Shown in pieces: positions 28,626 through 63,999 of a stretch of 64,000 bases of DNA. Source of the stretch: Hygrocybe punicea (taxonomy: Eukaryota; Basidiomycota; Agaricomycetes; Agaricales; Hygrophoraceae); NCBI GenBank assembly GCA_963556145.1, contig OY744465.1, positions 1,922,001 through 1,986,000 on the forward strand, in the 5' to 3' direction. The translations under genes were made by a program, and so were the position numbers. The notes beneath the pieces were generated by a model. That model made no database searches. It saw only the letters and a list, made by a program, of their open reading frames with translations, and was not told where the DNA came from. The stretch's first letter is position 1. The number at the start of each line of letters is the position of its first letter.

Positions 28626-29237
28626 GCATCATCATGACCGCGAATTGATGGGCACGATCATTGTCCACGATTTGTTGCCATAACTGCAAGTGGAAAACGG
28701 CAGGCGTGAAAGTGTTCGAACACTGAACGAAGGCTTGGCGAATGCGAGAGTCGTATTGAACGTAGAGACGGAACAGCTCCGCGAAATCGGTGCGGGAAGT
28801 GATGAAGCGATAATGAGTGCGGAACGCGTCGGCGATCAATTTCTTTTGCGGCGAGTTTAGATAAATCTCGATGAGCTCGCAAAGACGTGGCCACGACTCC
28901 CAAAAATCCGAAAGAGATATCTCGAGCTCTCCGGCTGAGTCAAGCGGGGACGGCTGGATTTGCAAGCGGCCACCGTCTCCAACCGCAAGGGTTTCGAGGG
29001 ACGACAACCCAGAGTAAAGGGATGCGCGACACCTGGCATTAGACAAGAGATGTAAAGGAATATGCTTTAGCCGCCCTTGTTCCAAAATCCTCACAATACT
29101 AGGAGGGTACAAAATATCATTTGGATCTAACTGAGCGTCTGTGGAGGCCAGAGTAAGGAAGACTGGCGGCACAATGGCCGTGGCAGAGGCGCCAGGAAGG
29201 GCAGAAGCGCCAGGAAGGGTGAATTGACCCGGGTGAT
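28231..29237 (-). CDS. Gag-like protein, last exon (three zinc motifs)
   Basis: This exon completes the gag-like gene that starts at 37425. It follows an intron at 29238-29423 (GTGAGC...CGGTAG on the minus strand), and the frame is continuous across the splice. Near the end are a CCHC knuckle (CFVCLSPAHSGRKC), a CCCH finger with spacing C-x8-C-x5-C-x3-H (CFRFNGHLGCSFADACLYSH), and a CCHH motif (CSVCGSADHHAQSH). Knuckles bind the element RNA. The stop at 28231 lies inside the start of the RT ORF, giving a 395-base overlap in different frames. Confidence 0.8.
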
Positions 29238-35028: not shown

Positions 35029-35273
35029 GGCATTGAATTCGGATTCGACCGTCGTTTTCTTCTTCGCTGTTTTGTCTTCTTCAGCTGTAACATGGGTATC
35101 TCGCCACGTGTTACTTTCCTGTTTCGGTCTTGTTTCTGGTTGTTCTTTCGGTTGTTGTCTCAGGTCATTGCGGAGGTCTTTGAGTTTGGAAAATACACCA
35201 TTAAATTGTTTGCATACGTGTACATCTTTCTCGAGTTGTGCGATCGTGGCCTCCTGTACTTCACGTCGCTTTC

Positions 35274-36365
35274 TTAAAAACCCTCTTGTTTCAACTTCAT
35301 CGCTGCCAACTCATCCATCAATGCGGCAATCCGAGCGTCTTTGCCATCGTCTTGTTGTTGTCTCGGAGTTTGTTGAACGGTTTCCATAGAACGAATCTGT
35401 TGCCGTCCTTGTTGTTCCGGACAGTTGCGCGAGATGTGTCCGGGTTGTCGACATTTAAAACAGATTCCTTTTTTCATGAAATCCAACCGTTGTTCGTCCG
35501 TCAAACGAGTAAACGTTTGTTGTTGAGGTTGCGTTCGTCGTGTATCGACGTCCATCGGGACAGATTCCGACTGTGGACGAGGTGTTGATGTTTGTTGTGG
35601 CCGGGGAGTTGTCGATGCGGTTGCTGTGTTTGGATTGTATCGTGTTTTTACGGATGAGTTCATGGATCGTATCTGATCCTGACGGCGTCGCCATTGTTGG
35701 TCCAATTGAACCGTCTGCGTACGCCATTCTTCGACGGTGGTTGGGATTTGCATACCGGTATAGATCTGGTCGATCAGTGGTTTGTTCATATGTAGTTCGA
35801 CGAGTTGAATGAGATAATTATCATTCAAGAGTTCGCCGAGTCCAGCGATGCGTCGGAGAGTGTCAAACTCAATCCAAAACTCATCGGCTGTCATTTTTCC
35901 TTGACGCAGGTCGTTCAGCTTCGTCAATGCGTCCTTCTTCTGATCCGGTTTCTCGAAGTGCCGTTTGAATTCCGTGGTGAAGTCCTCCAGGGATCCGAAG
36001 TTGATGGGGGAGTGCTGTAGGGCAATGTCGACGTACTCGTCTGCCCATCGTCCAGCGAGTCCGCCTTGCAGGTACGAGAGGATAAAAAGGATTTGTTTTT
36101 CTTCACTGTCGAATGCAGCTCTGTTTGCACGGATGTAGATGAAGGCACTGCGGAAGAATGTTTTGAATCCTTCTTTGTTCCCATCGTACTTAGTTGGCGG
36201 AGCAATATGAGATTTTGGAGGCGACGGGGCTGCGGGTGCAACAGTGGTGATGTCTTGGGTTTCGTGGTTCTCTTCGGTGTCTGACATTCTGGTTTGGGTT
36301 TGGAGTTGAGATTGATGGTGAGAAGTAGTTGTTGGAGGAGGAAATGATGACGAGGGGAAAGGCAC
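35274..36365 (-). CDS. gag: Gypsy Gag with zinc knuckle
   Basis: 363 codons. It starts at 36365, or at MSDTEENHETQD (36287), which fits better with related gags. The central retrotransposon-gag region (FKTFFRSAFIYIRANRAAF, then FTTEFKRHFEKPDQKKDALTKL with DEFWIEFDTLRRIAG) forms the capsid-like part. A CCHC knuckle CFKCRQPGHISRNC lies near residue 308 and binds the RNA. The stop TAA (35274-35276) sits in GGTTTTTAAG. A -1 shift there leads into the pol frame (GFLRKRREVQEATIAQLEK). Confidence 0.9.
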   Translation of the reverse strand: MPFPSSSFPPPTTTSHHQSQLQTQTRMSDTEENHETQDITTVAPAAPSPPKSHIAPPTKYDGNKEGFKTFFRSAFIYIRANRAAFDSEEKQILFILSYLQGGLAGRWADEYVDIALQHSPINFGSLEDFTTEFKRHFEKPDQKKDALTKLNDLRQGKMTADEFWIEFDTLRRIAGLGELLNDNYLIQLVELHMNKPLIDQIYTGMQIPTTVEEWRTQTVQLDQQWRRRQDQIRSMNSSVKTRYNPNTATASTTPRPQQTSTPRPQSESVPMDVDTRRTQPQQQTFTRLTDEQRLDFMKKGICFKCRQPGHISRNCPEQQGRQQIRSMETVQQTPRQQQDDGKDARIAALMDELAAMKLKQEGF

Positions 36366-36530
36366 GGTTCGGACACTAGTCTGTGTTGCGACGTATTGGT
36401 CGAAGTCGTCGTCAGAGGAATCTGACGTTTCGGGTGCGAGATGATATTCGTCGTCTCGTTCTGAATCTGGAGTTCGGTATCGTCGGGGTTCCAGGATGTC
36501 TTGGTTGGTTTATTGTCGAGAGAGTAGAGA

Positions 36531-41609: not shown

Positions 41610-43357
41610 CGAATGATCAACAGTAGTATCAGATGCGAGACATCACCGTGTCTAAGTCTGTCATCAGGCTTACGGGAAGTACTCGATGACTGTGGTAGGT
41701 TCTTGCTGCCCATGCTGCCCACTTCCTGTTCAAACCCAGTCGATAGGCATCAACAAATCTGCTTGATCTTCATGCAAACCTGCGAAATGAGCCTGGGGAG
41801 GCAATGTTACAATTGACTCACTTGTGGATCATTACTAGGGGGATTGATTCCAATGCAGAAATGAGGTTTTTCTCGAGCTCAGCTTCATCTTTCAATGGTG
41901 GGTATTGCCAATATATCCTTTTTGCAAACCCCCAACACTGCTCAATGAAGTTGAGCTCACAGTGGAACTTTGGCAGGAACAAGACTCAAAAACCACGTCT
42001 GGCACATACAGTTTCCAAGTGGGACTTCACAGCTGTGAAATTGGGTTGGTGGTACAGCACATGGCAGGCACAGCAGGCTGTCTGTCCAGGTGAGCATTTG
42101 AAGCCCTTGCACTCAGCGTGGAGCTTTGATTCCTTGATTAGTCCTCATTCCGCCAAGATCACGGCCATTCCCTTGAATACACCAGCACGTGGATGGCCAT
42201 CTGGGAAATAAAATGGCTGTCACTCGCCGTTAGCGAAGCAAGCATCACCCATCCGCTGAATTATTTTGTTGGGCTTGCCGTTTGTGTTGTATATGATCTT
42301 CCCATTAGAGTCCCGTTCTGTGACGCTGATGCCCCAATTTTTGCCTGGAGCTGGTGTCTTTTTTGGCATTTTCCGAGCACTGAGTGCATCATCTGCACAC
42401 TTTGTGTGGGTCGGTGCATTGTCAAAGACAAAAACATGTTCATCATCAGGGAAGTACTTTTGTAGTATATCCATTGCAGTGCTGGCCTGATCCAGAATGT
42501 CCTCACAGTCAAAATAACCATCCCGATTTTTGCCAGGCTTGAAAAGCACACGTGTGTGCTCCGTTCCATCAGATGAACACAGCCAACCATAGTCAGCTGA
42601 TACGAAGTCGGCAACCATTAACGAGGCCCCTTCACCCTTTGCAGCAGGTATTGCAGTTTCGGATTCATGGACCCATCAAATCTTTCGGCAGTCATTGGCA
42701 TAGAATGTAGACTCATCATGATGCCATAAGACAACTCATCGTCCAGTCATAGAGGCCTTTTGTTCAATGGTAAGGTTCTCCCCTTCCCACACACGAATTC
42801 GAGCCTGAAGTGCAGCCCATTCTGGGACGTACACTTGTTGGCGGTAGTTCACGACATCCTCCCTTTCATGGCCATCCACATACTGACCCGTTGGCGTCTT
42901 CCTCCATCAGTAGCCTAGACGATGCATCCATCTCTTTGCAGTTGCTAGGGAGATGCCCTTCTTCAATTTGTAGGTCCTTTTGACTTCTTCTCGGCTCATA
43001 TATTCAACAACATCCAATGCCCGGACATATTTTCCAATTCCTTGGAGGTGCAGCTGAAGATCTTGACGTAGGTCCTCGTCCTCAATCATGGATATGCTGC
43101 CGTAATAGTTTGTCATTGGTAAGTTGGTCCGGTCATGGATATAGGCCTTTGTCCACTGACATAGTTGACGAGCAGCAAACTTTCCATTTATCTGAAGATT
43201 GCAGCCAATATCACAAATCCGCACAGCCTCAACAGATGCCTCTGTCCAGCCCTTGCCATGGATAGGGTCGGTATAAATCACCAGATGAGCCCGCATGAGC
43301 TCCAGATGGTGGCGAAGAGGTAAGGTGATGTCTGCTTCTTTATGACCATGTCCTGAT
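41610..43357 (-). pseudogene. DDE transposase of the IS630/Tc1-like type common in mushrooms, decayed
   Basis: The minus strand reads LRHHLELMRAHLVIYTDPIHGKGW, a HTH-rich N part, then VLWHHDESTFYAND (first Asp), HVFVFDNAPTHTKCADDALSARK (second Asp) and FHCELNFIEQCWGFAKRIYW (Glu), ending KYHSHR-like TYHSHRVLP. This is a family I know as multi-copy in Agaricomycetes. Stops interrupt it, for example after LGY (42907-42909), KI (42675-42677) and ILAE (42145-42147). In several of these TGA stands where relatives have Arg. The N terminus is cut by the hAT-like end at 43358. Confidence 0.8.
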
Positions 43358-44660
43358 TAGTGTTGGGGAAGTTCGGTTTGGTCCGGTTTGGGGCCTTTTT
43401 GCCCAAACCGGAAACTGAATGGTCCGGTTTTCTACCCAAAGTCCCCAAACCAGACCGAAACCAATGCAAACGGTTTGCATCGGTTCAGTTTCGGTCCAAA
43501 CGCGGTCTGAACCGCGGACCGCTAGTGCTCAGTGCCCCTGCACCATTCTGACCTCGCAACAGTGCTGCGCACGTCAATTGACGTGGCCAGCCTGTTTGCG
43601 AGGTGAGATTGGGGTGCTGGGGTGCTGGCACACCCTGCGCCGGCATTGAGCCACACGCGGGCTTCTCCATGGGTGTCCCGACGCGTCACACGCGTTGTAC
43701 ATGCGATGTGGGTTGACCGCGTTGGCTGTTTTCGGTGGACGCGTGATGGTGGTGGTGGTGGTGGTGGTGGTGGTGCCCCACGCGTCATACGCGTTGTGCA
43801 CGCGACGACGGCTGGGCCGCTTTGGTTGTTTTCGGCGGACGCGTGGTGGTGGTGGCATAGGAGCCTCTTCGCGAGGGTGTCCGGACGCGTCATACGCGTT
43901 GTACACACGATGACGGCCGGGTTGACCCCGCGTTGGCCTTCCTCGGTGGTGTTAGTGTTGCGTGGTGGTGGTGGTACGGTGCCGCGTTCTATAATGGACG
44001 AATAAATCAGTGAAAAAATGAATAAAGGTACATACCACGAAGGAGCGGGGTGGATGCACCACCCCTGCTGCTCTTCCACCTTGTTGACTCCACCCCATTC
44101 ACGTACGTTTGGCGCGCGTTTTGAACGCGTTTGGCGTGGCGCTGGGGGTGGGCCGTGGGCGTTGCTGTGGGCGCGTCCGGCGTGGCGTTGACGGTGGTTG
44201 TAACTGTCGCCGTGGTCGTTGCCGTTGTCGTGGTCGTTGTCGTGGTGGTGGTGGTGGTGGTGGTGGTGGCCGTGGTGCATCAACCTGTAATTTGTAAATG
44301 CGTTAGTTAAGTTCGAATAAATAAAAATAAAAAACATACGCGGGCGGCAGGGAGTACCCCGCCGCCCGTTTTGTCGACCTCGGGTGCTCCATCGTCTTCG
44401 TTTGGCGTATATCGGGGGTGTTGTTGGTGGGGTTGGTGACTTTGGGTGACTTTCGAAGTCAGCCATGTAGCCGACTTTGGACTGTCGGTTTGCGGTTCAA
44501 ACTGAGTTTGAAACCGTTTCGGCCCACGGCCAAATCTCCAAACCGGAGACTGAACGGTTCGGTCTCAGCCGAAATTTCCCAAACCGAAACCGAAACCGGC
44601 GGTTTCGGTTCGGTCTAAACCGGGTTTGGGTCGGTCTGAGACCGAACTTCCCCAACACTA
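43358..44660. mobile_element. hAT-like non-autonomous element E9
   Basis: Both ends begin TAGTGTTGGGGAAGTTCGGT (20 identical bases, inverted). Subterminal CCGGTTTGG/AAACCGG words are dense. The inside on the minus strand has hairpin GGGGTGGTGCATCCACCCC followed by a GTATGT intron (43989-44034), a second intron with branch TTAACTAACG (about 44285-44338), CACCACCAC repeats, and a tripartite palindrome. No 8-base duplication was found: the flanks gtcctgat and ccgtgtcc differ. It disrupts the DDE transposase pseudogene. Confidence 0.75.
43552..43603. repeat. Tripartite palindrome (TCAATTGA core), copy in E9
   Basis: CCTCGCAAC, ACGTCAATTGACGT with the core at 43574-43581, then TTTGCGAGG. Confidence 0.75.
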
Positions 44661-45300
44661 CCGTGTCCAAACCGCGAACGCGGATATTTTTAAGGAATTT
44701 ATTTCATTTGTTTTTCATATTTCTTTACTTACCATTTCGTGTTAAACGGTATCATGTGACCGGCCGTAGTAGCTTTCACGCGACACAGCAACATCAACGC
44801 GGATTGAACACAACACAATTTGTGTTGTGTTCCTCAAGGTAAGTTTCCTTTGTTTCTTAACTTTACTAATGTTATTTGCGACAGGCAAATCGACAACCAC
44901 GGCAACGACAACCACGACGCCCAGCAGCAGCAGCAGCAATGTCGGCAGCAGCAGCAACAGCGGCAGCGGCAACGGCAACAGCAGCAGCAGGAGCGCAGCA
45001 GCGACGGCGACGGCAGCAGCACCAGCAGCACCAGCAGTGGCAGCGGCAGCAGCAGCAGCAACAGCACCAGATGGCTCCCCCATAGCCCAACTTCCTCGCG
45101 AAGCGTAGCGCCATATCAATTGATACGTGCCTGCCATTCGCGAGGAGAACGGAGCTCAGGGGTGAGCCAACCTCGGTCTGGCGTTCAGACCGCGTCTGAA
45201 CCCCAGACCGAATGCGAAGAGACGGTTCAAACCCGAAGTTCAGTTCGCGGTTCCGCCAAAAAGGCTCGGAACCGGACCGAACTGAACTTCGGCAACACTA
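44661..45300. mobile_element. hAT-like element E10, left end missing
   Basis: The right end is the complement of TAGTGTTGCCGAAGTTCAGT, related to E1 and E9. Subterminal GTTCAG/CGGTTC words lie at 45170-45290. Inside is a clean intron (GTAAGTTTCC at about 44839, branch TTTACTAATG, acceptor GCGACAG near 44883), CAGCAGCAG low-complexity DNA and a tripartite palindrome. The left terminus is not found. It may be joined to E9. Confidence 0.55.
45094..45145. repeat. Tripartite palindrome (TCAATTGA core), copy in E10
   Basis: CCTCGCGAA, TATCAATTGATA with the core at 45116-45123, then TTCGCGAGG. One of the most symmetric copies. Confidence 0.8.
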
Positions 45301-45327
45301 ATCTCAATCTTGTTTGGGGAAGCCGTA

Positions 45328-45564
45328 TTACGATCGATCGCAATCCACCTGTTGTGAGCTTGAGCTCCATTTGGTATACTCGGATTTGCGCCTGATCGCC
45401 ATATGGCCCTCTTTTCTGAATCTGAGTCTTACCTTGTGCTCAAAATCTTTTGTTTTCGCCACGCTGACCATCCTCTCCATTCGGTCCTCCTTCGGCATCT
45501 CTTCCGAATTTGCCGATCTCGGACTTTTCTGCTTAGTCAGCACCTTTCCACCTGGCGCCGCCAA
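45328..45564 (-). other. Possible coding remnant, unknown
   Basis: A minus-strand frame of 78 codons (MAAPGGKVLTKQKSPRSANS..) without recognised features, lying in a plausible position for the lost N terminus of the DDE transposase. The plus strand is also open here (45314-45739), so neither frame is certain. From 45740 to 46150 I see no gene. Confidence 0.2.
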
Positions 45565-46170
45565 AGCTGAACCTTTGGGTCAATTTTCTCAGCGGCTTGC
45601 TGGCTCCTCAAAGTCAAAAACAAAAGTTTTTTCCCCAAACTCACAAAACCCTCTCAGTTTTGAGATCTCCACTGAACACCTATTCACTGTTCCTCAACGT
45701 CCCCATCCTTTACCCCATTCTGTATCCGCTTACGTATGACGGTAAATCTGGAACTTTATTATTTGCGCGATAAACCCTGTGTGTTTGCGTGATATAGGAT
45801 GTGCGTTTGCGCGATATAGAGGTAGTATAGTAATACTCAAATAATCTCCTACCGCCATCTATGTATTAGAGTAGCGGACAGAAGTAATAGCTAGTGACTC
45901 TGACTTGGACAATACCCCACCGAGCATGTCGACACCGCCTGCGACACATCTGTTAAACTCTTCGATGCCTACCCAGGACGACGAATTACTGCACATATTC
46001 TCAATTCCCCCCTTTGTTTGCCATTACCTTCCAGGATGCCTGGACCATTTCGATATCAGCACAGCTCAGCAGCATTGTTCGACAAAAAAACATATTTACC
46101 TTTTTGGACCCCGCCGACCACGACTTAGTTTTTTGTGCTCTACCCCGACCACGACTTGTTTTTTGTGCTC

Positions 46171-47706
46171 CAATGCCCCCTTCCACACTTCCTCCAACTC
46201 TCCCTGATCTACCCTCCGCATCACATCACACTTGGTCAGCCAACATACAAATTGCCCATCAGGTACTTGCCAACATCTACCATCATGCCTTCGCCATTAC
46301 TCAACAAGAAGATGCCGCTGACCCACTACGCATTGCTTTTCACATCGATACCATAGCCTCTGATGCCATACCAATCCTCAGTGCAATTGAAGAAGAGGCT
46401 GAGGCCGAAGACTGCCCGATGAGTCTCGATTGCCTCGAGAGTGGCTTCATGCTGCTGCGGAACTTTTTGCGAAGCTTGTATTCACTTTAAAGGTCACAGA
46501 GGGACTTACTGGAGAACAGTGAGTCAACTTTAATCTCAACTTCAATCTAATTCTATATTCTGGATTCTAGTGAGGATGCTGAACTCCTAACACCGGACCC
46601 GGTCACTGTCGTTCGAACTGGAAAGCCTGGGCGTCCTCATAAAGAGGTCGATCTTGAGTTTCTCCATGAAGCCACCTCAGCCCAGCATCAGATAAAGCTT
46701 ACCGAACTTGCAGACATACTCGGCATGCATCAACACATCCTTCATCAATACATGAAACGGCACGGTGTTCTCCCACAATATTCAAAGATTAGCAACCATG
46801 ATCTAGACATTTTTACCCGGACCTTCAAAGCTCAAAGGCCTGAATCAGGAATATGCTATCTCGTTGGGTTTCTATGAAACCATGGGCTTCGGATTCAACG
46901 CCGTCGTGTCAGATTGTTGATGAAGCGGGTTGATGGTTTGGGTCAGGTTTTGCGACAGCAGAAAGTCATCCAACGAAAGGAGTATCGTGTGAAGCGGCCC
47001 AACGCCTTATGGCATCTCGACGGACACCATAAACTGATACGATGGGGGATAGTCATACATTGGTTTGTTGACGGCTACTCCAGAACAGTAAATTCGATCA
47101 GTTGAGTTCTGCAATGTAAATTGACATTGACTTTACAGGTTGTGGCCCTTAAAGCAAGCACGAATAACTGTGCAATGACGGTCCTCGAACTTTTTCTTGA
47201 AACCTTGGATGAGTACGGCATGCCATCCCGCATGCGTGGAGATCGAGGAGGGGAGAATATGTATTGTGCAATTTACATGGTGATGCGAAATGGCCTGGAT
47301 CATTCATCATTTATATGGGGCTCGTGAGTACACCTAGGCCTAGTACTTCGTCCCTGACTATGTGAACATAAAGGTCAACTCGAAACACACGTATTGAGCG
47401 TCTTTGGGTGGAGGTTGGTACACAATTTGCTCGTCATTGGAAAGCATTCTTCATCCGACTTGAAAACCTCCATCACTTGGATGCCTCGAGTCCGGCTCAC
47501 CTATGGCTTCTCCACACACTCTTTCTCTCATCTATCAACGAAGACTGTGGTGAGTTCCAAAAGCAATGGAATGCCCATCTGATTGAAAGTGCACACAACA
47601 AAAGCCCAAATGTGCGTACTAATAATATTCTTGTACCTTCAAAACTGACCTCCGATGCTTGCCGTACCATGGCAGGACTTACGATTCATTGGGCAACTCA
47701 ATGTTA
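46171..47706 (+). pseudogene. Integrase-core (DDE) gene of the basidiomycete multi-copy type, broken
   Basis: Plus-strand pieces read GRPHKEVDLEFLHEA, then the HTH, then VKRPNALWHLDGHHKLIRWG (first Asp region), VVALKASTNNCAMTVLELF, RMRGDRGGENM (second Asp) and STRNTRIERLWVEVGTQFA (Glu region), ending ESAHNKSPNVR. This matches an integrase catalytic-core family frequent in mushrooms, of unclear role. Introns are visible: GTGAGT...TTCTAG (about 46517-46570), GTAAAT...TTACAG (about 47087-47140) and GTGAGT...ATAAAG (about 47327-47373). A TGA at 46875-46877 follows YLVGFL where relatives have Arg, and another stop lies near 46488. It appears dead, though only by a few changes. Confidence 0.75.
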
Positions 47707-48219: not shown

Positions 48220-48516
48220 ATCCGGCGGAGATGCATGGGATATGACATGTATCATTTCCACATCGCCAATTGCGAGCTCAATCTGCGTCCTTGTCTTGGC
48301 GTCTCCGCCGCACCATTTCTTCATCGCCTCGGATTCCTCTGATGTTGGACGGGATGCGTCCGCCGGGACAGGGGCCTTTGATTCCGCATCGATGTACGTC
48401 TCTAACCCAAGATCCCGAAGTACGGCTAACATCCGTCTCTTCCACAGCATCCAATTGTTTCCCTTTAATAACTCGATCCGGTATGATCCCGATGTGTGCG
48501 TGACTTCATCCGTCAT
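48220..48516 (-). pseudogene. Copia-type gag, N-terminal fragment
   Basis: Starts at 48516 with MTDEVTHTSGSYRIELLKGN, then NWMLWKRRMLAVLRDLGLETYI and IELAIGDVEMIHV. This is the N terminus typical of Ty1/Copia gag (the UBN2-like region). It loses gag character after about 95 codons. Just upstream of the start codon is the hAT-like element E6. The leader continues at 53645. Confidence 0.75.
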
Positions 48517-49637
48517 AGTAGTGTTGCCACGGCTCGGTCCGGCTCGGCTCGGCTACGGCTACCAACGGCTAACCCATATATGGGTTGTTAGCCGGACCGG
48601 ACCGTTGTGGCAACGGCTAAACCGCGGCTAGCCGTCCAAAAAAGGAAATTAATAGCACCAAGGTCACCAGTCTCACCGCACAAACATGCGGAGCACACCG
48701 GTGACACCATGCCTGACGCCAACAGCCACAGCTACACCAGCTCGCGACAACGCCGGCCGACCCACAACAAAGGCCACAGCACCCCAACGGCGACCAGCAG
48801 AGGGGCGAGGAATGAAGCGGCAACAGAAGCAGCACTCCCGTTATGAATCTTTGTTTTTTTTTTACTACCAACTTATGTCTGATTACAGCACTAATGATCT
48901 CAAGGCAACAGCAGCCCGGACAGCAGTAGCAACGAGCAATGACCACGGTGACAGCAAACAGCAGCAGTGGCAACGACGGCAACAGCAGTGCCAGCAGCGA
49001 TGACAAGCGACGCGTGCCAATCCCAGACATAGCAGATTATAGCGACGCTCAAAATGACGCTCAAAGTGACAGTTTTTCGACCACCCTTTGTCTCCAGCCA
49101 GGGCTATCCGGTCACCTTCATTCCTAACGCTTTCCCTGCTTGTCATTCCCATTCCAAGTAAGTCCGTCTTCACACGAAGAGACTTTTTTTCGATCTTCAC
49201 ATTCATTTCGTAAGAGCGTTCGATTCAATACGGTACCAACTAGCGACTATGTTTGATGCAAATTTGATGCACATCGAGACATCGCAGCTGACCGCTTACT
49301 TTCTACAGCGACGGCGCGCGATCGGTGGCCTTCTTACTATGATCTGCGAAACTGGTGGCTGCCGCTGCAGCGCTGTGAGTTTCAACGCTAACTCGTATGT
49401 TCGTCCCTCTTTTTTCATTTGATGTTGTTTCGAAGACTTGTGCCGCATTTCTCTGCGGAACGCAGATCAAAGAACATTGCACTTCATACTGCCGTAGCTC
49501 GTGAATACAAAATCCATAAAACTGGCATAAAATTACAAAAGCCGGCTTGGTCGTGATCTCTATGAGCCGCAAATCTGAAGATCAGTCGTCTGTAATCTAA
49601 GAAAATGCTATTCCATCAACCCCTCCTAGCATACCGG

Positions 49638-53878: not shown

Positions 53879-54529
53879 TTATTCATCGGACGGGTGTGTT
53901 TGAGTTCCGGGGTCACGTGATACGAATTACTAATCCTTTCCGCGACTATTCGGCCACTATTCCCAACACAGTGGATACCCTCAGGCTACTGATTCCCCAG
54001 CCTACTTGACCGAATATTTCATGCCATGGGCAAACAACGGCGTGATCATCGGTCCTTGCATACATGCCATAGTAACCTGCTGTGCATCTCGGATACCCGC
54101 CGTACCTGCCGTCCAGATAACTTTGACAACCATCCGACGGGTAGGTAAAAGTACCGTAAAACAGGCACCCTGCACGGCCGACAAGCTCGTGGGAAATGCC
54201 GAAACCGTGGCTGTTTTTTCGACTACAGTCACTACACGATGATACGTTCCATGTTCAGCGGGAATCTAACTTTACAGCGGATGACTACAGCTGATAGCCA
54301 TTCTGAGGTTAGTCTATGGGAAGGTTTTGATGAGCAAACCGTCGGGATGACACTTGTTCCACGTTTGACGCTTCATGTACAGGTTAACCATGGGTACCCG
54401 TCGCTCTCATTACAAATGTGCGTTACAATGACATCATCGTATTGTTCTTACTAATTATGTACAGCGTATTGCTGTTCACGACCGCGGAAGTATTATAATT
54501 AATTTGGGGAGGCTGTACCGACAATTCTG

Positions 54530-54537
54530 GATAAAAG
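54530..54537 (+). promoter_or_regulatory. TATA-like box before the secreted repeat protein
   Basis: GATAAAAG lies about 200 bases before the start codon, after an AT-rich TATTATAATTAATT word. The stretch from here to the ATG is C/T-rich, as usual for fungal promoters and leaders. Confidence 0.35.
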
Positions 54538-54735
54538 CCACCATGTCTCGTCCTTCATTTCCTCACCTCGCTGGCCGAGCACATACATCTCTTCACGACT
54601 TCTTCAGTGAGCTTCTTCATATCCTCACACTTTGTATTTCATTTTGACTCTCCACGACAGTTACTATCTCACTTTACGATTTACGACCAAAACCAAACCC
54701 TAATCTAAACTCTGCACCCAACGTTATAACGAAAA

Positions 54736-55927
54736 ATGCATTCTACATCGCTCGCCGTCTTGCTCTGCGCTGTCCTTTCTTTGCAACGTAAGATACTTCT
54801 TCATCATCGCTCTCGCACTGTGCTGATCCACCAACGCAGAGGTTGCCGCTGGCCCCGTGATGACCCGTCGTGGCGCCTGTTTGAGCTGTATTAAACCCTC
54901 CCACCCCAGTACTAGCCAATCCATCAACATGTTGGTGACGGGAAACCCATCTGTTGCTGCTCAGGCTGCTCGTAACCAAGGAGGCAGCTCATCCCAGCCA
55001 CGTCCCCGACCGCCCGCGGGTGGTCACAAGAGAGAGGTTGATGCTGGCCCCGTGATGGCCCGCTCACAAAACATGCGTCGTGGCGCCTGTTTGAGCTGCA
55101 TTAAACCCTCCCACCCCAGTACTAGCCAATCCATCAACATGTTGGTGACTGGAAACCCATCTGTCGCTGCTCAGGCTGCTCGTAACCAAGGAGGCAGCTC
55201 ATCCCAGCCACGTCCCCGACCGCCCGCGGGTGGTCACAAGAGAGAGGTTGATGCTGGCCCCGTGATGGCCCGCTCACAAAACATGCGTCGTGGCGCCTGT
55301 TTGAGCTGCATTAAACCCTCCCACCCCAGTACTAGCCAATCCATCAACATGTTGGTGACTGGAAACCCATCTGTCGCTGCTCAGGCTGCTCGTAACCAAG
55401 GAGGCAGCTCATCCCAGCCACGTCCCCGACCGCCCGCGGGTGGTCACAAGAGAGAGGTTGATGCTGGCCCCGTGATGGCCCGCTCACAAAACATGCGTCG
55501 TGGCGCCTGTTTGAGCTGCATTAAACCCTCCCACCCCAGTACTAGCCAATCCATCAACATGTTGGTGACTGGAAACCCGTCTGTCGCTGCTCAGGCTGCT
55601 CGTAACCAAGGAGGCAGCTCATCCCAGCCACGTCCCCGACCGCCCGCGGGTGGTCACAAGAGAGAGGTTGATGCTGGCCCCGTGATGGCTCGCTCACAAA
55701 ACATGCGTCGTGGCGCCTGTTTGAGCTGCATTAAACCCTCCCACCCCAGTACTAGCCAATCCATCAACATGTTGGTGACTGGAAACCCATCTGTCGCTGC
55801 TCAGGCTGCTCGTAACCAAGGAGGCAGCTCATCCCAGCCACGTCCCCGTCCGCCCGCGCCCATTAAAGGCACGACTGCCATTGCAGCTCATCTCGCCGGT
55901 GGTTCGGGTTCGGGTCACAGGGGATAG
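54736..55927 (+). CDS. Secreted Kex2-processed repeat protein (peptide precursor), 379 residues
   Basis: Exon 1 (54736-54787) encodes MHSTSLAVLLCAVLSLQ, a short clean signal peptide. A 52-base intron follows (GTAAGA...CGCAG, 54788-54839), then exon 2 to the stop at 55927. The mature part is five tandem repeats of 70 residues (210 bases, units from 54866, 55076, 55286, 55496 and 55706). Each has RRGACLSCIKPSHPSTSQ, then TGNPSVAAQAARNQGG, a Pro/Arg stretch (QPRPRPPAGG) and HKR-EVDAGPVMARSQ. KR followed by EVDA is a Kex2 site with a dipeptidyl-peptidase-like spacer, as in alpha-factor and fungal KEP precursors. RR gives a second possible site. Each repeat has a CLSC pair. The last unit ends in a different tail (IKGTTAIAAHLAGGSGSG). 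Copies are nearly identical in DNA. The gene is intact in a field of dead ones; cell biology and product are unknown. Confidence 0.85.
54866..55858 (+). repeat. Five in-frame 210-base tandem repeats
   Basis: Units begin CGTCGTGGCGCCTG at 210-base steps. Only a handful of single-base differences are seen between units, silent ones included, so the array is recent or kept uniform by gene conversion or unequal crossing-over. Confidence 0.95.
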
Positions 55928-56338
55928 AAGCAGTTGGCAGTTGGCCGTAGGGTAGTAGGTAGCTTGATGACTTGGAGAGACGAATTGATATTGTATTTTT
56001 GAGACGGATAGCCTGAGCGACTTTCAATGAGTTGCCGACTTGCAGTGAAATCGGTCAGCATATCGCATGCACTGGCACAAGATGTTGAGTGCACATTTTA
56101 GTCCTTTAGAAGCTGCAACGGCCGCCTGGCAGGGAAATCTCTTTTTGGCCACGCTAGATAACTGTTTTAATTGTAACAACGGTTCGTCGTGGATAAGAAA
56201 TTCTTCCTGTCAAAAATGGATTCAACAAAGTAAATTGTATTCCCTGAAATATACAGCAAAGATATAAATGAATGATGAGAACCGCCATAGGTCCACACCG
56301 TTTCCCCATATACGACCCAGTGAGACTTGTGCTAGAGG

Positions 56339-56487: not shown

Positions 56488-59400
56488 TCACATAAGAACA
56501 TATATTAAAACACATGGCTGTTTGGATCTACAGACAGTTAGAACAACATCCTCTAGCATTCCTTCATATTCTGTAGTTCTTCCAGTGACAATTCCATCAT
56601 GAAACCACACATGACCTGCTGGACTGATAATACGAGAAGTGAAGTGAACATCCCCATGATAGATAACTCCTCTAAGACAGTACTGAGATGGTTCTGCTTG
56701 CCCCTCAACTGGTACTGTCAAGTTATGATTAACAGTGGTGGTTGTGGCAGACACAGCAAATGTAAGTATCTCAGGAGCATTTACAAAACTGAACTTTCTG
56801 ATTAGGAAATCATTGCGAACTGTACACTTTGAACCAAGAGAAATTAAAAATAGATCAATCTCATCCTGAATAGATTCAAAGTCAATCCTTCCAACTTCAA
56901 TATGGCAGTTACATGATGCTGCTCGCTGTCTAGACACAGGATGATGTTGAGGACAAGAAATACACGATGAAAGAATGGGAATTTCAGTGTGCAATAATGC
57001 ACTTAATAAGGCACTAATACTAGTTATCACTCCCCAAGGGAAGCTAACAGGTGAATGCCGATGTAGGTGACGTCTTAAATAATCACGTACGTCTTCTAAA
57101 GAGTATTCACCATTAGAATGGCATGAAAATCCATCTACTAAGATGCCAAGAAATTGAGGATTTAAAGATCTGAAAGAATTAGACCATGTGATTTTATCAC
57201 CCTGCCAGATATCATAAAATACAGATATCACAGAGTCATAGGCACAGCTGTTATTGCTCCAACAGGTACCAACAGGAATGTTTATTGAGATTTCAGGAGA
57301 ATCTACATTGGTATGACTTATTTTCAGACGCTTCTTTTGTGGAGCAACATGAGAACCACTAATTTTTCTCTTAGTTATAGAATGTTTAGCAAGCTTTTCC
57401 AGAGAAGTAACTTGTTCAGATATGAAACATGACTTGGGAGTGACAATCTTTGGAACAATTTGCTTCTTTCCTAGGATTTTCCATGGAATATTGTTTTCAT
57501 CTGAATTCACAATAAACAAATCAGACTTATTCCAATGAATAGCTTTATGAACTTTTGCAGGAACATAATATTCACCTTTCCAATCTCTAAATGTCTGTAT
57601 CAGTGTATTTCTCTTATCTCCTGTGACAGAATTTGGTAGCTTGCCTTCATATCTCAATCGCACAATTTCATCTAGAAGTTCTAGCTCACGAAACTCTTGA
57701 CGTAATGCACCAGATGCACCTCCAGTTATTTTCCTTGCATCAAACCCTTGCAAAATTACTGTACCTGATGCTGATGCACTCCTTGACAAAGCAGTGTAGT
57801 ATGACTGATGAGACTGACTGTTATTTAGGTCTACTGCATTAAAAGGCCTTGTTTTGCCTTGTGAAGAATAATCTGTCATTGAAAAATTAGGAAGTACCTC
57901 CACCTGACTTCGAGAAACAGTAATGGATGAATCATTAGGAAGAGCACAATCTACGGTGACATTTGTTCTTGCTATTGGAACTACATTTTCAGGAAGTCCA
58001 TCAAAATGAACTGATTGTGGAGGATTAATCAGCTTTACAAACAGAGTATCCAGTATTCTTTGACCTTTCGAGCCTTTCATTGACTGCCAGCAATACACTG
58101 TGCCTTCTTGGCCTCGTGTAATGCAGAGTTCTGTTGCACTATTATTGCGAATCATGACAGGCATTCCAACACATAAAGATAGTTTTCCAGGAATACATTT
58201 AGCATTGGAACTATGTGGTTGATTCCATAGAATATTCTGCACACTATCTGATAATACATGGAGTTTTTTGGCTTTATGATGAGAAAACTTCTGGCCTTTT
58301 TTTCTTTCTTGTGATGAAGTGATTGAGTCTTCAGAAAAAAAATCAACAAGTGGCTGAGATGTCTCCTTAGAAAATCTCAAAGACCCAAGGCGATTAATCT
58401 CATCTTTGTGAATATTAAATGCAGTAATGATTGAGACCTGTCTAAATTCCTTATGTTTCACTGATACACGTCCAGGTATATTGCTGGATATTCGAGTACG
58501 CAGAAATACAATATCTTCAGCAGTACAAGCTTTATATCGCATGTTTGTTAAAGCTAGTCGAAGCTGAGCATCTTCTTTTGTTTGAAGTCTTTGCCTCATG
58601 TTCTCACACAGTATTACAACAGTAGTAACCTGGTGCCACAGAGCCTTTCCAATAGCAGCTTCCTGATCCAAGAGATTAGTTGAACTAGCTCCAACTGATC
58701 TGCTATAAAGAGATGCATTTTCTTTTCCAATTGCAGGGGGTAATTGAGCAAAATCCCCTGCAAAGATCATATTTAATCCTCCCCATGGTAGTTCAGTTTC
58801 ATTGAAAATCTTTGCCATTCTTGCACTGATACGGTACATATCTCGACAAGACAACATTGAAACTTCATCAAAAAAAATGTAATCAACTCCCTGCATTCGT
58901 GACCTCAACTGTGCAAGTTGCTTACTTGATATACATTCATCAGTTTTTTCATTTAATCCAAACATGTAATGATAAGTTGAACCTGCCAACAGTGCAGCAG
59001 CAGATCCAGTTGGTGCCACAATAACAAAACGGTGCCTTTCTTTTTTGGTCTTAAAAAGCTGGACCAATGCTTTCAAAATTTGAGTTTTACCTGTGCCACC
59101 CATCCCACCAATATACATTTTCAACTGATCAGATGAATCAATAAAGGCATGATGGGAAACAATTTTAAATGCTCTTTGTTGTTCTTGATTTAGGTGGAAC
59201 TCCTCAACAACGCTATCTATTGCTAACCTCAAAGTACCAGATTGACAATTTTTTTCAAGATATGACTTATCAACAATTTTGACAACATTATGGCTCAATG
59301 AAGTATGTGTTGGTAGCTGACTATTGACATTACATGGCAGGTTTTCTGCATGTCGTTCAAGCAGATCTTGTCTTTTCTTTTGCACAGCAGCTTTCCATTG

Positions 59401-62400
59401 ACTTCCAGATTGGATAATATCAGGAGGTGTTACCTCAACCCTGAAAGGCTCTGCTAGCACTGCTTCTGTCCAACCTGTTTGAGTCATTACAGCCTGCATA
59501 GTTGCCATGTCATGTTGACGTTTTATCTCCCTCTTACCAATTGCAGTAAAATCAGCATCAAACTCTCCACATAACATTGCAAATTTATCATCATCTTTGT
59601 GATTGTCAAGCTCATGTAATATATCATCATCATGATCCATTGTAAGATCATAGCCCTCACTCCAACTTGGTAAAATTGTTGAACCCTTGCGAAGTTGAGC
59701 ATGGAAGTCATCACGAGCATCTAAACACTCATACCTTATATTGAAATTTTCCATGAGTTCAACTTGTCTACAACTGAATTTATATGCTAAAAAAGACTCA
59801 TCCCAAGATTGATCTTTAGTTTTCAAATCAAACCCTGACTGCCAAGGTTTGAACAAAGATAGCATAGCTGAGCAATAATATTCACGATCACCTTGATCAC
59901 ATCGTGGTAAAGTAGCTCCTATAAAGGTAGGAATTTGTGCACTTTTCTCCTGAACACATTGGGTTCCATGTGAATTTTGAAGTGGATGTGTGGAAAGAAA
60001 GGCAAATAAGCCAGCAGGAGAACAACTGTTTGTTGTGACATCAGATTTAAGTTCAGAATGGTCTACTATATTAGCTTCCAAGCTAGTTGTGGACACTGAA
60101 TTCCTGTCATGTTGAGTGTCAGAAACATCTGTATCATCTTTAAATACGTCATACTTGTCATTGCCATCAGTGACAAATTCTGCTGTACAATCTTTCTGAC
60201 TTGCTTTAGGCTTGGAAAACTTCTCACGTTTGCATCGACTTATCCAATCATATAAGCACATATCAGCCAGTTCTTTGGGGCGGTATATATAATCATATAC
60301 AGGTGATAATCCAATAATAGCACCTCTGCGTTTGATCAATGCCACCTTTTCAGCCTGCTCCAGATTGTCTTCAGAATTCCAAGCCTTTCGTGCCTCATGT
60401 ACATATGTTTGCCAAAAAAATGGAGCAAAGTGGTAGTTTGTGTAGTGATCAGGATTTTGTAAAAGATACAGACAAGCCATTGGTGAACCAATTTCCATCT
60501 TAGCACTTAGATTATTGACAATTTTGGTCATGAGTCGACGTGCTTTTTCCTTTTGAGTTTCACTACTGCCCAGCATCTCACTGTTCTTCTGAAATATAGC
60601 ACGGACTGTGTCAAATATAACATAAGTTTTTAAGGCAATTTTGGTAATGTAGTCTGACACATAAAGTATCACACCTTTAATTGCAGTTCCAGACTTCAGA
60701 CTTGTTACATCTGTGTTAGAGCGAGTTAGATAAGTGAGCAGAGGGGTAATAGTATTTATCATGGGCTCTGCCTTTTTCATATTAAGAGCTCCAGTTTCTG
60801 GATCAACTTCAGTGTGGCTGAATAATGGACGAGGAAATCTTGCCTTACATTTTCCCCACTTGTTATCCAAGCACCCCACATACTGACGTGATTTGTTTTG
60901 AGAACCATCTTTATTTCTATTGGTGGAACAATGATGTATATTAGATTTGGCTAAAATGTCATCAACTACTGACTTAAACCTATCTTCCCACATTCTCAAA
61001 GCTTGGCACATATCACAACTGCCACACTTTTCAGAACAGGAGCTAGGAGGTGCTTCAGGCAAAGTCTGGGTTGGGTCCAGATACTTAGCTGATTCTGAGG
61101 CTTCTTGAATATTCTTCAGAACTTCATCTTGAGATCCAGTAAGAAATTCACCCATGTGTGTGCTCTCTAAATACTCAACAATTTTTTTCTGGAAATCTGA
61201 AGAGGGATCTAATATGCGTTTCCTTATCTCTTGTGGTGTTAAGCATCCACGGATCCAAATCAACATGTGAAGATGTAAAGTGAGGCGGCCTTGTTGTTCA
61301 ACCGTGCCATAATAAGCTGAAGTCTCACCATATATCCCAGGATGATCTGAATTGACACCCAAAACATGCTTAATGAAAAGGTTGATCATGAGGTGGAAGA
61401 AACGTGCACCAGCCACAGGATTTTTGGTGATCAGTCGGATACGCTCATCACTTGATCTAATTGCTGGGTCAAATTTTTCCTTTGTATCAGCGAAGTATAA
61501 ACAAATGGGATGTTTAACATCAGCTGGAGATAAAGTGATGTACCATGAAGGAGCACCACAATATGAGATCAATGACCAAATTTCATTCCTCATAAACTTC
61601 TTGCTTGTAGTAGATCCACTCACTTTTGCTCCTACATGATCCAAATCACGAACAACCTGGTAACAATCCTTCTCTTCTTGGCTAACTGGTTTCACAATCT
61701 CTCCATCTGACAACCTCTTGGCCAATGAAGATAAAACAGTTTGGTCAACACTCAACAGACGTCTACTTATTTCACCAAATTTTGCTTTATCTGCAAGTAA
61801 AAAACCACCTGTTGAGCTTGCCTTCACTTGAGCATGACTGAAAGCAACAAAAGGGAAATATATGTCCATTTGAAATCGTTTGTCATGATACATTAGCAGA
61901 TGTCGCTTGTGTTCATTATCAGACAATGATGTAGAACCTATGCCACCCATTCCATATGGAAATAACCAAGGGAACATTTGTGGATATAGCTCTGGATTTT
62001 TATAAATAGATTCATACTTGGAGGAGTGACCAATAGCCAACATCTTACCTTCACTATTGAGATGTCTTAATGCAATTCCTTTCAGTGAATTGATTGTCTT
62101 GGTGTCCAGGTGTTCACCAGCCAGTCCATGAACAACAAATGGACAGTCACCATGCTCAGTACCATCTTCACAATCATTGTCAAACACACTTGTTCCTTCT
62201 GGTACTTTATTTGTCTCTCTATGGCGATACTCAACAGAGACAGGTGGCCCATTCTCAGGATATCTTGAAAGATTATCATACGCTATATCTAAATCATGGT
62301 AATCAGCATGGTTTAACTTCAACCATTCAAGTGCTCTTGCAACATGATTCCTTCGCACTAACAAAGGTGTGCGTTCAAAGTCTTTTTCTGTTGGCTTACA

Positions 62401-63999
62401 CGGTCCAGTAAACAAGATAGCCAGGACATCATCAAGATCATCAACAGGTGGGGGTAATGCTTGATACACCTTTGGGATCGGTGACTGGAAAGCAACAACA
62501 TGTGATGTCATCTTCCTCATGCCTGATGCCACTCGCACAAAACAACAGTTGTGACGTACACGAGCTATAATCAACTTTTCAACAAACCGAAGGTCTGCAA
62601 GTTCCTTTGGCACACAACCTAGCCAAAGCCCCCTTGCTAGGGCAAGAAGGGGAACATTTCCTTTTCTAACACAGCTTCGACAGGTACCACAAATCTTATC
62701 ACATTGGTAATCTAGAACAGGTCCTTTATATTCTCGAATTTTCTCTCTCAATTTTTTTCTTTCAATCCTCGTTACTCCTGGAGCTTCAAGAACACTAAGC
62801 ATGCCTTTTACACTTTTCAATCGGCTCAAATTGCTTAATGGTATGAGCTCACCACACACAGCACAGCCTGACTCTTCAAATGTACTAGGCATTGAGTCAC
62901 CACAAAAGTCTGACACAACTGTATGTGCTAGTTCTTGAGACAAAGGAGGAGGAGGAAAGAAACACTCCACTTCCTCTGCTTTCTTGGCAGCATATACAGC
63001 ACGTTGTCCTTCATGTTTTTTGTCTAATTTTTGGTCAGACAAGGCAGCAGGCTTGAGCTTCCATTGTTGGGGTTTTGCTCCCTGCTTTATTGAAAAGACA
63101 CTAACATATGAATTGCAGCTCACACAGTGGTGGTCTTCAAAGTATGTCAGTAAATTTGCTTTAGGTACATGAGAGCCAATAGAAATATGATGGATGTGAG
63201 CAAGTTTATGCACCATTCGAACAGGAATATATGGAATGAGGTTAAGCAATGGTACATTTGCATGAATAAACTTCTGCATGACAGGATATGACCTCAAACC
63301 ATCATTGTCAAGGTGATCAACAAAAGTGAAAACAGAATTTGGATTTATGTTATCATCACTGCTTTGAATAAATGGCAAGATTTCACTGGCAGGAAATAGA
63401 TGTGACCTCCCCCCACCAACAAGAACTACATGTTTGTCTTGACCTTGAATTATCATTTCCTGTTGAGGCACACTGAGAGAGGAAGAGCATTTACATTTGG
63501 CATGAAATAATGCAAAACATGGTAAGTGTGAGGGAAAATAATGTTGAATTATCTCAAAAGTGTAATGTGGTCGACAGAGTGACAGCAGATCTTGTGTGAC
63601 AAATAACCAGTGTAGATTGAGGCTAGGAGGCAGTCGATGTCCTGCCAAATGAAAAGCTTCCAAGGTTGAAGGGAGCAAGCCTTTCTTCTTGCCAGCATAC
63701 TTACACAGTTTTGAAATGCTTGCAGGGGAATTTGAACGTGCAAGCAGCGCACAGTAATCATGGCAAAACATCAGATTCCGTTTTAAAACAAGTGATAGTG
63801 TGCAACACTCAGAAGCAACATTGTGTTCTGGTACAAGAAGGAACTGAATTGCACATATGTAGAGTTGTGCATATAATTGATGCACGAATGAAACCCACAT
63901 CATCCTATATTCAGTTTTAATGGGGTTGGTCAAAGGAAACTCATGGGGGGCAAATAACGGAGACCCCTGAGGGGTAATTGACTGGTAAATTGTGATCAA
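56488..63999 (-). CDS. Helitron Rep-helicase polyprotein with C-terminal USP-like protease domain (N terminus off window)
   Basis: An uninterrupted frame of 2503 codons, open at the window edge with no certain start. Estimated positions from that edge: Cys-rich zinc segment (CDKICGTCRSCVRKG, 435); a fungal Helitron N region (ELADLRFVEKLIIARVR, 470); Helitron-like N domain (MFPWLFPYGMGG, 680); Rep HUH motif LTLHLHMLIW (908) and Rep tyrosines YVSDYITK (1115); PIF1-type helicase with Walker A GGMGGTGKTQIL (1630) and Walker B IFFDEVSML (1710), ending QGKTRPF and YTALSRSAS. Near the C terminus GTCWSNNSCAYDS (2248) and GVIYHGDVHFTS..GHVWFHDG (2463) look like the Cys and His boxes of a ubiquitin-specific-protease-like fold. 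Rep nicks and joins DNA and the helicase unwinds it in rolling-circle transposition. No stop or frameshift is seen, unlike most neighbours. Confidence 0.9.
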   Translation of the reverse strand: MITIYQSITPQGSPLFAPHEFPLTNPIKTEYRMMWVSFVHQLYAQLYICAIQFLLVPEHNVASECCTLSLVLKRNLMFCHDYCALLARSNSPASISKLCKYAGKKKGLLPSTLEAFHLAGHRLPPSLNLHWLFVTQDLLSLCRPHYTFEIIQHYFPSHLPCFALFHAKCKCSSSLSVPQQEMIIQGQDKHVVLVGGGRSHLFPASEILPFIQSSDDNINPNSVFTFVDHLDNDGLRSYPVMQKFIHANVPLLNLIPYIPVRMVHKLAHIHHISIGSHVPKANLLTYFEDHHCVSCNSYVSVFSIKQGAKPQQWKLKPAALSDQKLDKKHEGQRAVYAAKKAEEVECFFPPPPLSQELAHTVVSDFCGDSMPSTFEESGCAVCGELIPLSNLSRLKSVKGMLSVLEAPGVTRIERKKLREKIREYKGPVLDYQCDKICGTCRSCVRKGNVPLLALARGLWLGCVPKELADLRFVEKLIIARVRHNCCFVRVASGMRKMTSHVVAFQSPIPKVYQALPPPVDDLDDVLAILFTGPCKPTEKDFERTPLLVRRNHVARALEWLKLNHADYHDLDIAYDNLSRYPENGPPVSVEYRHRETNKVPEGTSVFDNDCEDGTEHGDCPFVVHGLAGEHLDTKTINSLKGIALRHLNSEGKMLAIGHSSKYESIYKNPELYPQMFPWLFPYGMGGIGSTSLSDNEHKRHLLMYHDKRFQMDIYFPFVAFSHAQVKASSTGGFLLADKAKFGEISRRLLSVDQTVLSSLAKRLSDGEIVKPVSQEEKDCYQVVRDLDHVGAKVSGSTTSKKFMRNEIWSLISYCGAPSWYITLSPADVKHPICLYFADTKEKFDPAIRSSDERIRLITKNPVAGARFFHLMINLFIKHVLGVNSDHPGIYGETSAYYGTVEQQGRLTLHLHMLIWIRGCLTPQEIRKRILDPSSDFQKKIVEYLESTHMGEFLTGSQDEVLKNIQEASESAKYLDPTQTLPEAPPSSCSEKCGSCDMCQALRMWEDRFKSVVDDILAKSNIHHCSTNRNKDGSQNKSRQYVGCLDNKWGKCKARFPRPLFSHTEVDPETGALNMKKAEPMINTITPLLTYLTRSNTDVTSLKSGTAIKGVILYVSDYITKIALKTYVIFDTVRAIFQKNSEMLGSSETQKEKARRLMTKIVNNLSAKMEIGSPMACLYLLQNPDHYTNYHFAPFFWQTYVHEARKAWNSEDNLEQAEKVALIKRRGAIIGLSPVYDYIYRPKELADMCLYDWISRCKREKFSKPKASQKDCTAEFVTDGNDKYDVFKDDTDVSDTQHDRNSVSTTSLEANIVDHSELKSDVTTNSCSPAGLFAFLSTHPLQNSHGTQCVQEKSAQIPTFIGATLPRCDQGDREYYCSAMLSLFKPWQSGFDLKTKDQSWDESFLAYKFSCRQVELMENFNIRYECLDARDDFHAQLRKGSTILPSWSEGYDLTMDHDDDILHELDNHKDDDKFAMLCGEFDADFTAIGKREIKRQHDMATMQAVMTQTGWTEAVLAEPFRVEVTPPDIIQSGSQWKAAVQKKRQDLLERHAENLPCNVNSQLPTHTSLSHNVVKIVDKSYLEKNCQSGTLRLAIDSVVEEFHLNQEQQRAFKIVSHHAFIDSSDQLKMYIGGMGGTGKTQILKALVQLFKTKKERHRFVIVAPTGSAAALLAGSTYHYMFGLNEKTDECISSKQLAQLRSRMQGVDYIFFDEVSMLSCRDMYRISARMAKIFNETELPWGGLNMIFAGDFAQLPPAIGKENASLYSRSVGASSTNLLDQEAAIGKALWHQVTTVVILCENMRQRLQTKEDAQLRLALTNMRYKACTAEDIVFLRTRISSNIPGRVSVKHKEFRQVSIITAFNIHKDEINRLGSLRFSKETSQPLVDFFSEDSITSSQERKKGQKFSHHKAKKLHVLSDSVQNILWNQPHSSNAKCIPGKLSLCVGMPVMIRNNSATELCITRGQEGTVYCWQSMKGSKGQRILDTLFVKLINPPQSVHFDGLPENVVPIARTNVTVDCALPNDSSITVSRSQVEVLPNFSMTDYSSQGKTRPFNAVDLNNSQSHQSYYTALSRSASASGTVILQGFDARKITGGASGALRQEFRELELLDEIVRLRYEGKLPNSVTGDKRNTLIQTFRDWKGEYYVPAKVHKAIHWNKSDLFIVNSDENNIPWKILGKKQIVPKIVTPKSCFISEQVTSLEKLAKHSITKRKISGSHVAPQKKRLKISHTNVDSPEISINIPVGTCWSNNSCAYDSVISVFYDIWQGDKITWSNSFRSLNPQFLGILVDGFSCHSNGEYSLEDVRDYLRRHLHRHSPVSFPWGVITSISALLSALLHTEIPILSSCISCPQHHPVSRQRAASCNCHIEVGRIDFESIQDEIDLFLISLGSKCTVRNDFLIRKFSFVNAPEILTFAVSATTTTVNHNLTVPVEGQAEPSQYCLRGVIYHGDVHFTSRIISPAGHVWFHDGIVTGRTTEYEGMLEDVVLTVCRSKQPCVLIYVLM

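Follow-up and report, generated by a model that had tools for sequence, protein, structure and literature searches.

A five-unit repeat gene for a putative KEX2-processed precursor in a transposon-rich fungal segment, and its two-unit counterpart on another contig

Introduction

In a stretch of fungal DNA crowded with mobile elements, what does an intact gene made of near-identical tandem units encode, and how did its units come to be so many and so alike? The question arose from a first-pass annotation of 64,000 nucleotides (this whole stretch is referred to here as the window), in which such a gene was noticed. The peptides of KEX2-processed repeat proteins (KEPs) are numerous and mostly without known function; to these the gene in the window would add a long cationic core with a CxxC motif. 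The sections below take up the gene model, a second copy of the gene elsewhere in the genome, the dibasic sites and the products predicted from them, the surroundings of the gene, its class, a proposed mechanism, and finally its likeness to known fungal precursors.

Gene model and evidence for translation

The gene lies on the plus strand of the window at 54736–55927 and has two exons, with its ATG at 54736 and its stop codon at 55925–55927; splicing out 54788–54839 leaves an open frame of 1140 bases that encodes 379 residues. In the spliced translation, exon 1 (54736–54787, plus strand) carries the start of a signal-like peptide, MHSTSLAVLLCAVLSLQ. The intron (54788–54839, plus strand) is 52 bases long and of the GT-AG type (GTAAGA...CAG), has a branch-like CTGAT motif 12 bases before its end, and is unchanged in the second genomic copy. 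Exon 2 opens at 54840–54871 (plus strand) with the end of the signal-like peptide (QVAA) and a short pro-segment, GPVMTRR, which are divided at a putative cleavage point. Within the signal-like start, MHSTSLAVLLCAVLSLQQVAA, the hydropathy maximum of the N-terminus falls on LAVLLCAVLSL (mean hydropathy 2.97), and VAA/GPV after this hydrophobic run would be a plausible signal-peptidase site.

Exon 2 consists of five in-frame units of 210 bases that start at 54866, 55076, 55286, 55496 and 55706. Tandem Repeats Finder describes the array with a period of 210, 4.7 copies and 99% matches, and its score of 1944 is the highest among the 54 rows obtained for the window. Core 1 (54872–55027, plus strand) has 52 residues, GACLSC...GGH, with RR before it and KR after it, and is followed at 55028–55081 by KR, the spacer EVDAGPVMARSQNM and RR, a segment of which three more start at 55238, 55448 and 55658. 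Cores 2, 3 and 4 occupy 55082–55237, 55292–55447 and 55502–55657, and core 5, together with a non-repeated tail PIKGTTAIAAHLAGGSGSGHRG and the stop codon, occupies 55712–55927, all on the plus strand. The spliced frame, open from ATG to stop, and the repeat finder thus bear out what the first-pass annotation had proposed as to coordinates, intron, frame, the five 210-base units and the intact state of the gene.

The five units differ from one another at six sites, all of them third positions and all six silent, an outcome with a chance of 0.0002, or of 0.0006 when transitions are given their weight; in unit 5, which has a unique tail, the comparison covers the first 150 bases. When the second genomic copy is added, six of seven variable sites are silent, the chance of at least six of seven being about 0.003; this count omits the short segment ahead of unit 1, which reads VAAGPVMT in place of the VDAGPVMARSQNM of the later spacers, with differences that alter both residues and length. 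Since every difference among the units is silent, translation of the frame is supported.

A second genomic copy and the growth of the array

The gene is not single-copy. The genome (92.2 Mb in 42 contigs) holds one further copy, on the minus strand of contig C36 (C36:3926502–3927063), and the search that found it also returned a weak match on C1 (E 0.58). Intact as well, the C36 copy has two units and 169 residues, of which a single one, in the last unit, is altered (A to G). The block common to the window and C36 extends over window positions 53990–56318. Substitutions affect 1 of 737 bases in the upstream flank, which also has four gaps, and 2 of 391 in the downstream flank; exon 1 and the intron are the same in all of their 104 bases, which brings flanks, exon 1 and intron together to 3 substitutions in 1232 aligned bases.

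Likeness to C36 extends further. Among pieces longer than 300 bases, compared between the window and 99.5 kb of C36, three are collinear, with order and relative orientation preserved, at window positions 48512–49028 (86% alike), 45301–47698 (96%) and 43348–44663 (98%), and long unmatched stretches separate them. The piece at 45.3–47.7 kb is itself made of repeated elements (47 genome matches), and a fourth piece, an inverted element at 9.7–10.4 kb, is out of order relative to C36. By substitutions the gene block at 53990–56318 is about 99.8% alike, compared with 86–98% in the distant collinear blocks, and gene conversion or constraint is a possible source of the higher figure.

The view of C36 as the other haplotype, that is, of the two copies as alleles, was considered and dropped, as single-copy gene counts point to a haploid assembly. 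RPB2-type matches resolve into three single loci, and 25 proteasome matches form 13 loci by manual grouping, about one haploid set, for which 14 genes are expected. Judged from these locus counts, the assembly looks haploid, and segmental duplication therefore accounts for the C36 block better than allelism does; partial phasing of the assembly is less likely.

The two copies together carry a trace of how the array may have grown. Position 24 of the unit is T in the first unit and C in all later ones, and position 144 is A in every unit but the last, where it is T. All three middle units of the window gene combine C at 24 with A at 144, and the C36 copy is composed of one unit of the first type and one of the last type. 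Unequal crossing-over in which a last-type unit aligns with a first-type one would produce middle units of the C24/A144 kind, and the simplest reading is that the five-unit array expanded from a two-unit form, contraction from five units to two being possible. An array either young or kept uniform had been suggested from the near-identity of its units; this is upheld, and unequal crossing-over from a two-unit form would explain the uniformity with no special upkeep. The presence in one genome of a two-unit and a five-unit copy, together with the expected recombinant units, makes a small but clear case in which to study the growth of peptide copy number.

Dibasic sites and predicted products

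Each unit contains two KR/RR pairs, and shuffled units are expected to contain 1.04. At least two such pairs occur in 18% of shuffles, and in 28% when dibasic pairs of any kind (KK and RK too) are counted. The number of sites is not above chance and therefore gives, taken alone, no evidence for cutting; their identity across units proves nothing either, because the units are nearly identical. Placement is another matter. A dibasic pair in the junction zone is found in 6.6% of shuffled units, and such a pair accompanied by another immediately preceding the core in 0.06%, in zones that were picked post hoc, after inspection of the sequence. Unlike their number, the placement of the sites is suggestive of cutting by KEX2. 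A search of the genome for P domains of the KEX2 type gave two matches 7 kb apart on contig C2; at these loci (C2:6478715 and C2:6485892) the two longest open frames, of 280 and 197 residues, are identical, which may reflect local duplication or else an artefact of assembly. The linker before GAGGTTG was also compared with the end of the intron, to see whether the KR junction could derive from it, and this derivation was rejected (shuffle P 0.15 anchored and 0.98 local, with 359 of 1103 background sites scoring as well).

The same sites could be read in a more modest way, as those of a prepropeptide with one working core, in which the RR after the pro-segment is cut, the expansion is neutral, and unit number and KR junctions have no role. 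This reading is unlikely. It draws on the two-unit copy, which is also intact, on the pro-segment GPVM and the RR before the core, which the first and the later units have in common, and on the chance-level number of dibasic sites; it sits poorly with a KR found at the junction, where separation of the units would need it (a post hoc observation), and with the silence of every change among the five units.

Under the preferred reading of repeated cutting, the products can be listed. In-silico cutting after every KR and RR releases GPVMTRR once, the core GACLSCIKPSHPSTSQSINMLVTGNPSVAAQAARNQGGSSSQPRPRPPAGGH(KR) as four identical copies of 52 residues, the spacer EVDAGPVMARSQNM(RR) as four identical copies, and a last piece of 71 residues with the unique tail. 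The first-pass annotation had predicted from each unit a peptide of roughly 50 residues with a CxxC pair, in good agreement with the four 52-residue CLSC cores that cutting would yield. The core holds two cysteines, as CLSC, and no acidic or aromatic residues (0 of 52 are F, W or Y), is rich in S, P, G and A, and its net charge is about +3.9; the two acidic residues that the unit contains sit in the spacer EVDAGPVMARSQNM. Average masses were calculated as 5166.7 for the disulfide-free core and 1504.7 for the spacer.

The peptide itself is an unfamiliar one and may, as first suggested, belong to a new secreted family. The single 70-residue unit contains no Pfam domain. Two whole-protein Pfam matches above the cut-off, to KH_Vigilin (31 bits) and DHODB_Fe-S_bind (27.4 bits), were rejected as products of summing over the repeats, since none of the stretches reaches the cut-off by itself, a unit taken singly has no match, and the two-unit copy stays below the cut-off. 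A PDB search with the two-unit protein returned no relative at E 10, a scan of viral contigs gave 68 pattern matches and 0 confirmed relatives, and a literature search on the core motif (GACLSC, RRGACLSC, CLSCIKP, GACLSCIK) brought up nothing related by title. The PRPP stretch of the core resembles one in apidaecin, to which a relation finds no support here. A structure model of a 54-residue piece, made with no alignment, has two short helices at a mean pLDDT of 61.6, too weak to use.

Such a low-confidence core model and the abundance of S, P, G and A might also be expected of a flexible repeat protein, rich in Ser, Pro and Gly, that is secreted or displayed at the surface without being cut, and repeat expansion is common in surface proteins too. 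This explanation is rather improbable, given two classical dibasic sites in each unit, a tail (...GSGSGHRG) that is not hydrophobic by eye, and a single unit that lacks a Pfam domain.

Transposon-rich surroundings

A transposon-rich setting had been noted from the start, and the Helitron and Ty3-type frames around the gene confirm it. The window has 118 stop-to-stop frames of at least 110 amino acids, the gene among them; of the other 117, 21 were searched with Pfam, which gave mobile-element matches above the cut-off in three, a weak match below it in one, and none in 17 (E 0.01). The gene may be the only intact non-transposon one in the window, as the first-pass annotation stated. A Ty3-type pol frame (30994–35310) and a gag frame (35277–36509) lie between LTR-like repeats that are 98.8% alike. 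On the minus strand, a Helitron frame at 56491–63999 begins 563 bases beyond the stop codon of the gene and continues into the neighbouring locus as far as 64536, with 2682 residues, no stops, and the domains DUF6570, Helitron_like_N and PIF1. The DNA of this frame has a G+C content of 37–42%, below most of the window, and another Helitron-type stretch, 44% identical in protein, occurs within the 99.5 kb of C36. A further minus-strand frame of 679 residues, at 26592–28628, is one of the 17 with no Pfam match; its 89 genome matches, in which pieces of one element are counted apart, mark it as repeated too, two other full-length matches are 99% identical, and it is probably an unrecognised mobile-element protein.

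That the gene is intact but unexpressed, merely carried along in a segment dense with mobile elements such as the Ty3-type frames at 30994–36509 and the adjoining Helitron frame, is very unlikely, for both genomic copies are intact, the units differ by silent changes only, and flanks, exon 1 and intron retain nearly all of their bases (3 substitutions in 1232).

Assignment to the KEP class

Two published definitions of KEPs bear on the gene. The rule of Umemura asks for at least three repeats of 8–100 residues between KR, KK, RK or RR, as given in the part of that work cited here (PMC7329392), and the window copy has four cores of 52 residues and a last piece of 71. The rule of Le Marquer, likewise as set out in the cited part (2019, PMC6339444), asks that three or more similar fragments make up at least 15% of the protein; judged on fragment identity, the window copy has five fragments of 52 residues that cover 69% of it. 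The two-unit copy on C36 falls outside both three-repeat rules on number. A KEP also has a signal peptide, for which the hydrophobic N-terminus with its VAA/G site is the candidate here. The KEP plan proposed at first, that of a precursor of secreted type whose repeats have dibasic sites at their ends, is accordingly favoured by both the sequence features and these rules, and the gene is probably a KEX2-processed repeat protein of a fungus of basidiomycete type.

The class is a large one. The cited portion of the survey records KEPs in 1345 of 1461 strains, 7878 in all (Umemura 2020, PMC7329392), and with KEPs so common the gene is filed under a known class. From the figures in that portion, 2560 of the 7878 have no homologues in the surveyed set and DUF3328 genes adjoin only 22% (PMC7329392), so that a KEP with no recognised relatives and no UstYa is usual.

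Proposed mechanism

The precursor would enter the ER, where signal peptidase may cut after VAA; in the Golgi, KEX2 would cut after RR and KR, and KEX1 would trim off the basic ends. The secreted products would be some four copies of a cationic CxxC peptide of 52 residues and one longer form. As to origin, an ancestral unit made of a pro-segment and a core may have duplicated once to give a two-unit gene, after which unequal crossing-over could have raised one genomic copy to five units.

A more specific and quite doubtful version treats the gene as a KEP variant in which each unit has its own pro-segment, cutting at RR and KR unmasks a cationic peptide with a cysteine pair, and the number of units tunes the dose; the core could in that case be an antimicrobial or interaction peptide, and two as against five units would, if this were true, tune peptide dose between the gene copies. 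KEP peptides have been detected in mushrooms, and in the cited part of the same work six kep gene knockouts are described as having no axenic phenotype (Vogt 2022, PMC9769878). By analogy, there is weak support for the view that the peptide serves interactions with other organisms and not growth.

Comparison with known systems

The basidiomycete lipopeptide pheromones end in a C-terminal CaaX. The first-pass annotation had placed pheromone precursors among those sharing the plan of the gene; for this type the likeness is not borne out, as the protein ends in GSGSGHRG with no CaaX. Genes for STE3-type receptors were matched in the genome on C8, C2 and C40 and none on C7 or C36, so that nothing on the latter two points to a mating-type locus. 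The presence of several such receptor loci, together with general background, underlies the label of basidiomycete type; a search for 5.8S rRNA gave no match among the 39 of 2334 candidates that were scored, and multicopper oxidase genes were matched as well.

Dikaritins and other ustiloxin-type RiPPs share with the gene the Kex2-bounded repeats behind a signal or signal-like peptide, and are expected to have an aromatic residue in the core. The RiPP reading, also raised at first, finds no support in this form: the core lacks F, W and Y, and the genome search for UstYa (DUF3328) gave three matches, of which C34 has two pieces and C40 one, with none on C7 or C36, which speaks against a dikaritin. 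Pairs of UstYa and a repeat precursor do occur in this genome, as seen on C34, where a candidate repeat precursor (L049:3733–4957, C34:6267232 onward) lies about 1 kb from a UstYa gene (L049:2132–2783). The candidate has a signal-peptide-like frame and repeats of the types PQGVDIAYKKREEKPE and GTDIVFDRYKAREDQPE, and reads open to its stop after ten GT...ACTGAT...AG introns are removed by a simple pattern; most repeats then stand on their own exon of 48–54 bases, and one exon of 159 bases may hide an intron missed by the pattern. It looks like a UstYa-linked precursor of dikaritin type with intron-separated repeats.

The alpha-pheromone-like KEPs of the STE13 type have KEX2-cut repeats like those proposed here. 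Their signature, in the part of the paper cited, is XA or XP dipeptides directly after KR (PMC6339444). Of the dibasic site plus dipeptide-like spacer that had been described for the gene, the KR is present, but the spacer EVDAGPV has no XA or XP in that place; it starts with EV, which argues against trimming by STE13.

The closest match is with KEPs in general, and existing knowledge of that class is left unchanged by the gene in the window. Like them, it has a signal-like N-terminus, near-identical tandem units with KR and RR between them, and no Pfam domain per unit. It differs from them in three respects: the core, with its CxxC, has 52 residues and so exceeds in length the KEP peptides mentioned in the cited portions of the KEP papers; the pro-segment that follows the signal-like peptide recurs as the spacer between KR and RR; and a second copy of the gene, with two units only, is present in the same genome.
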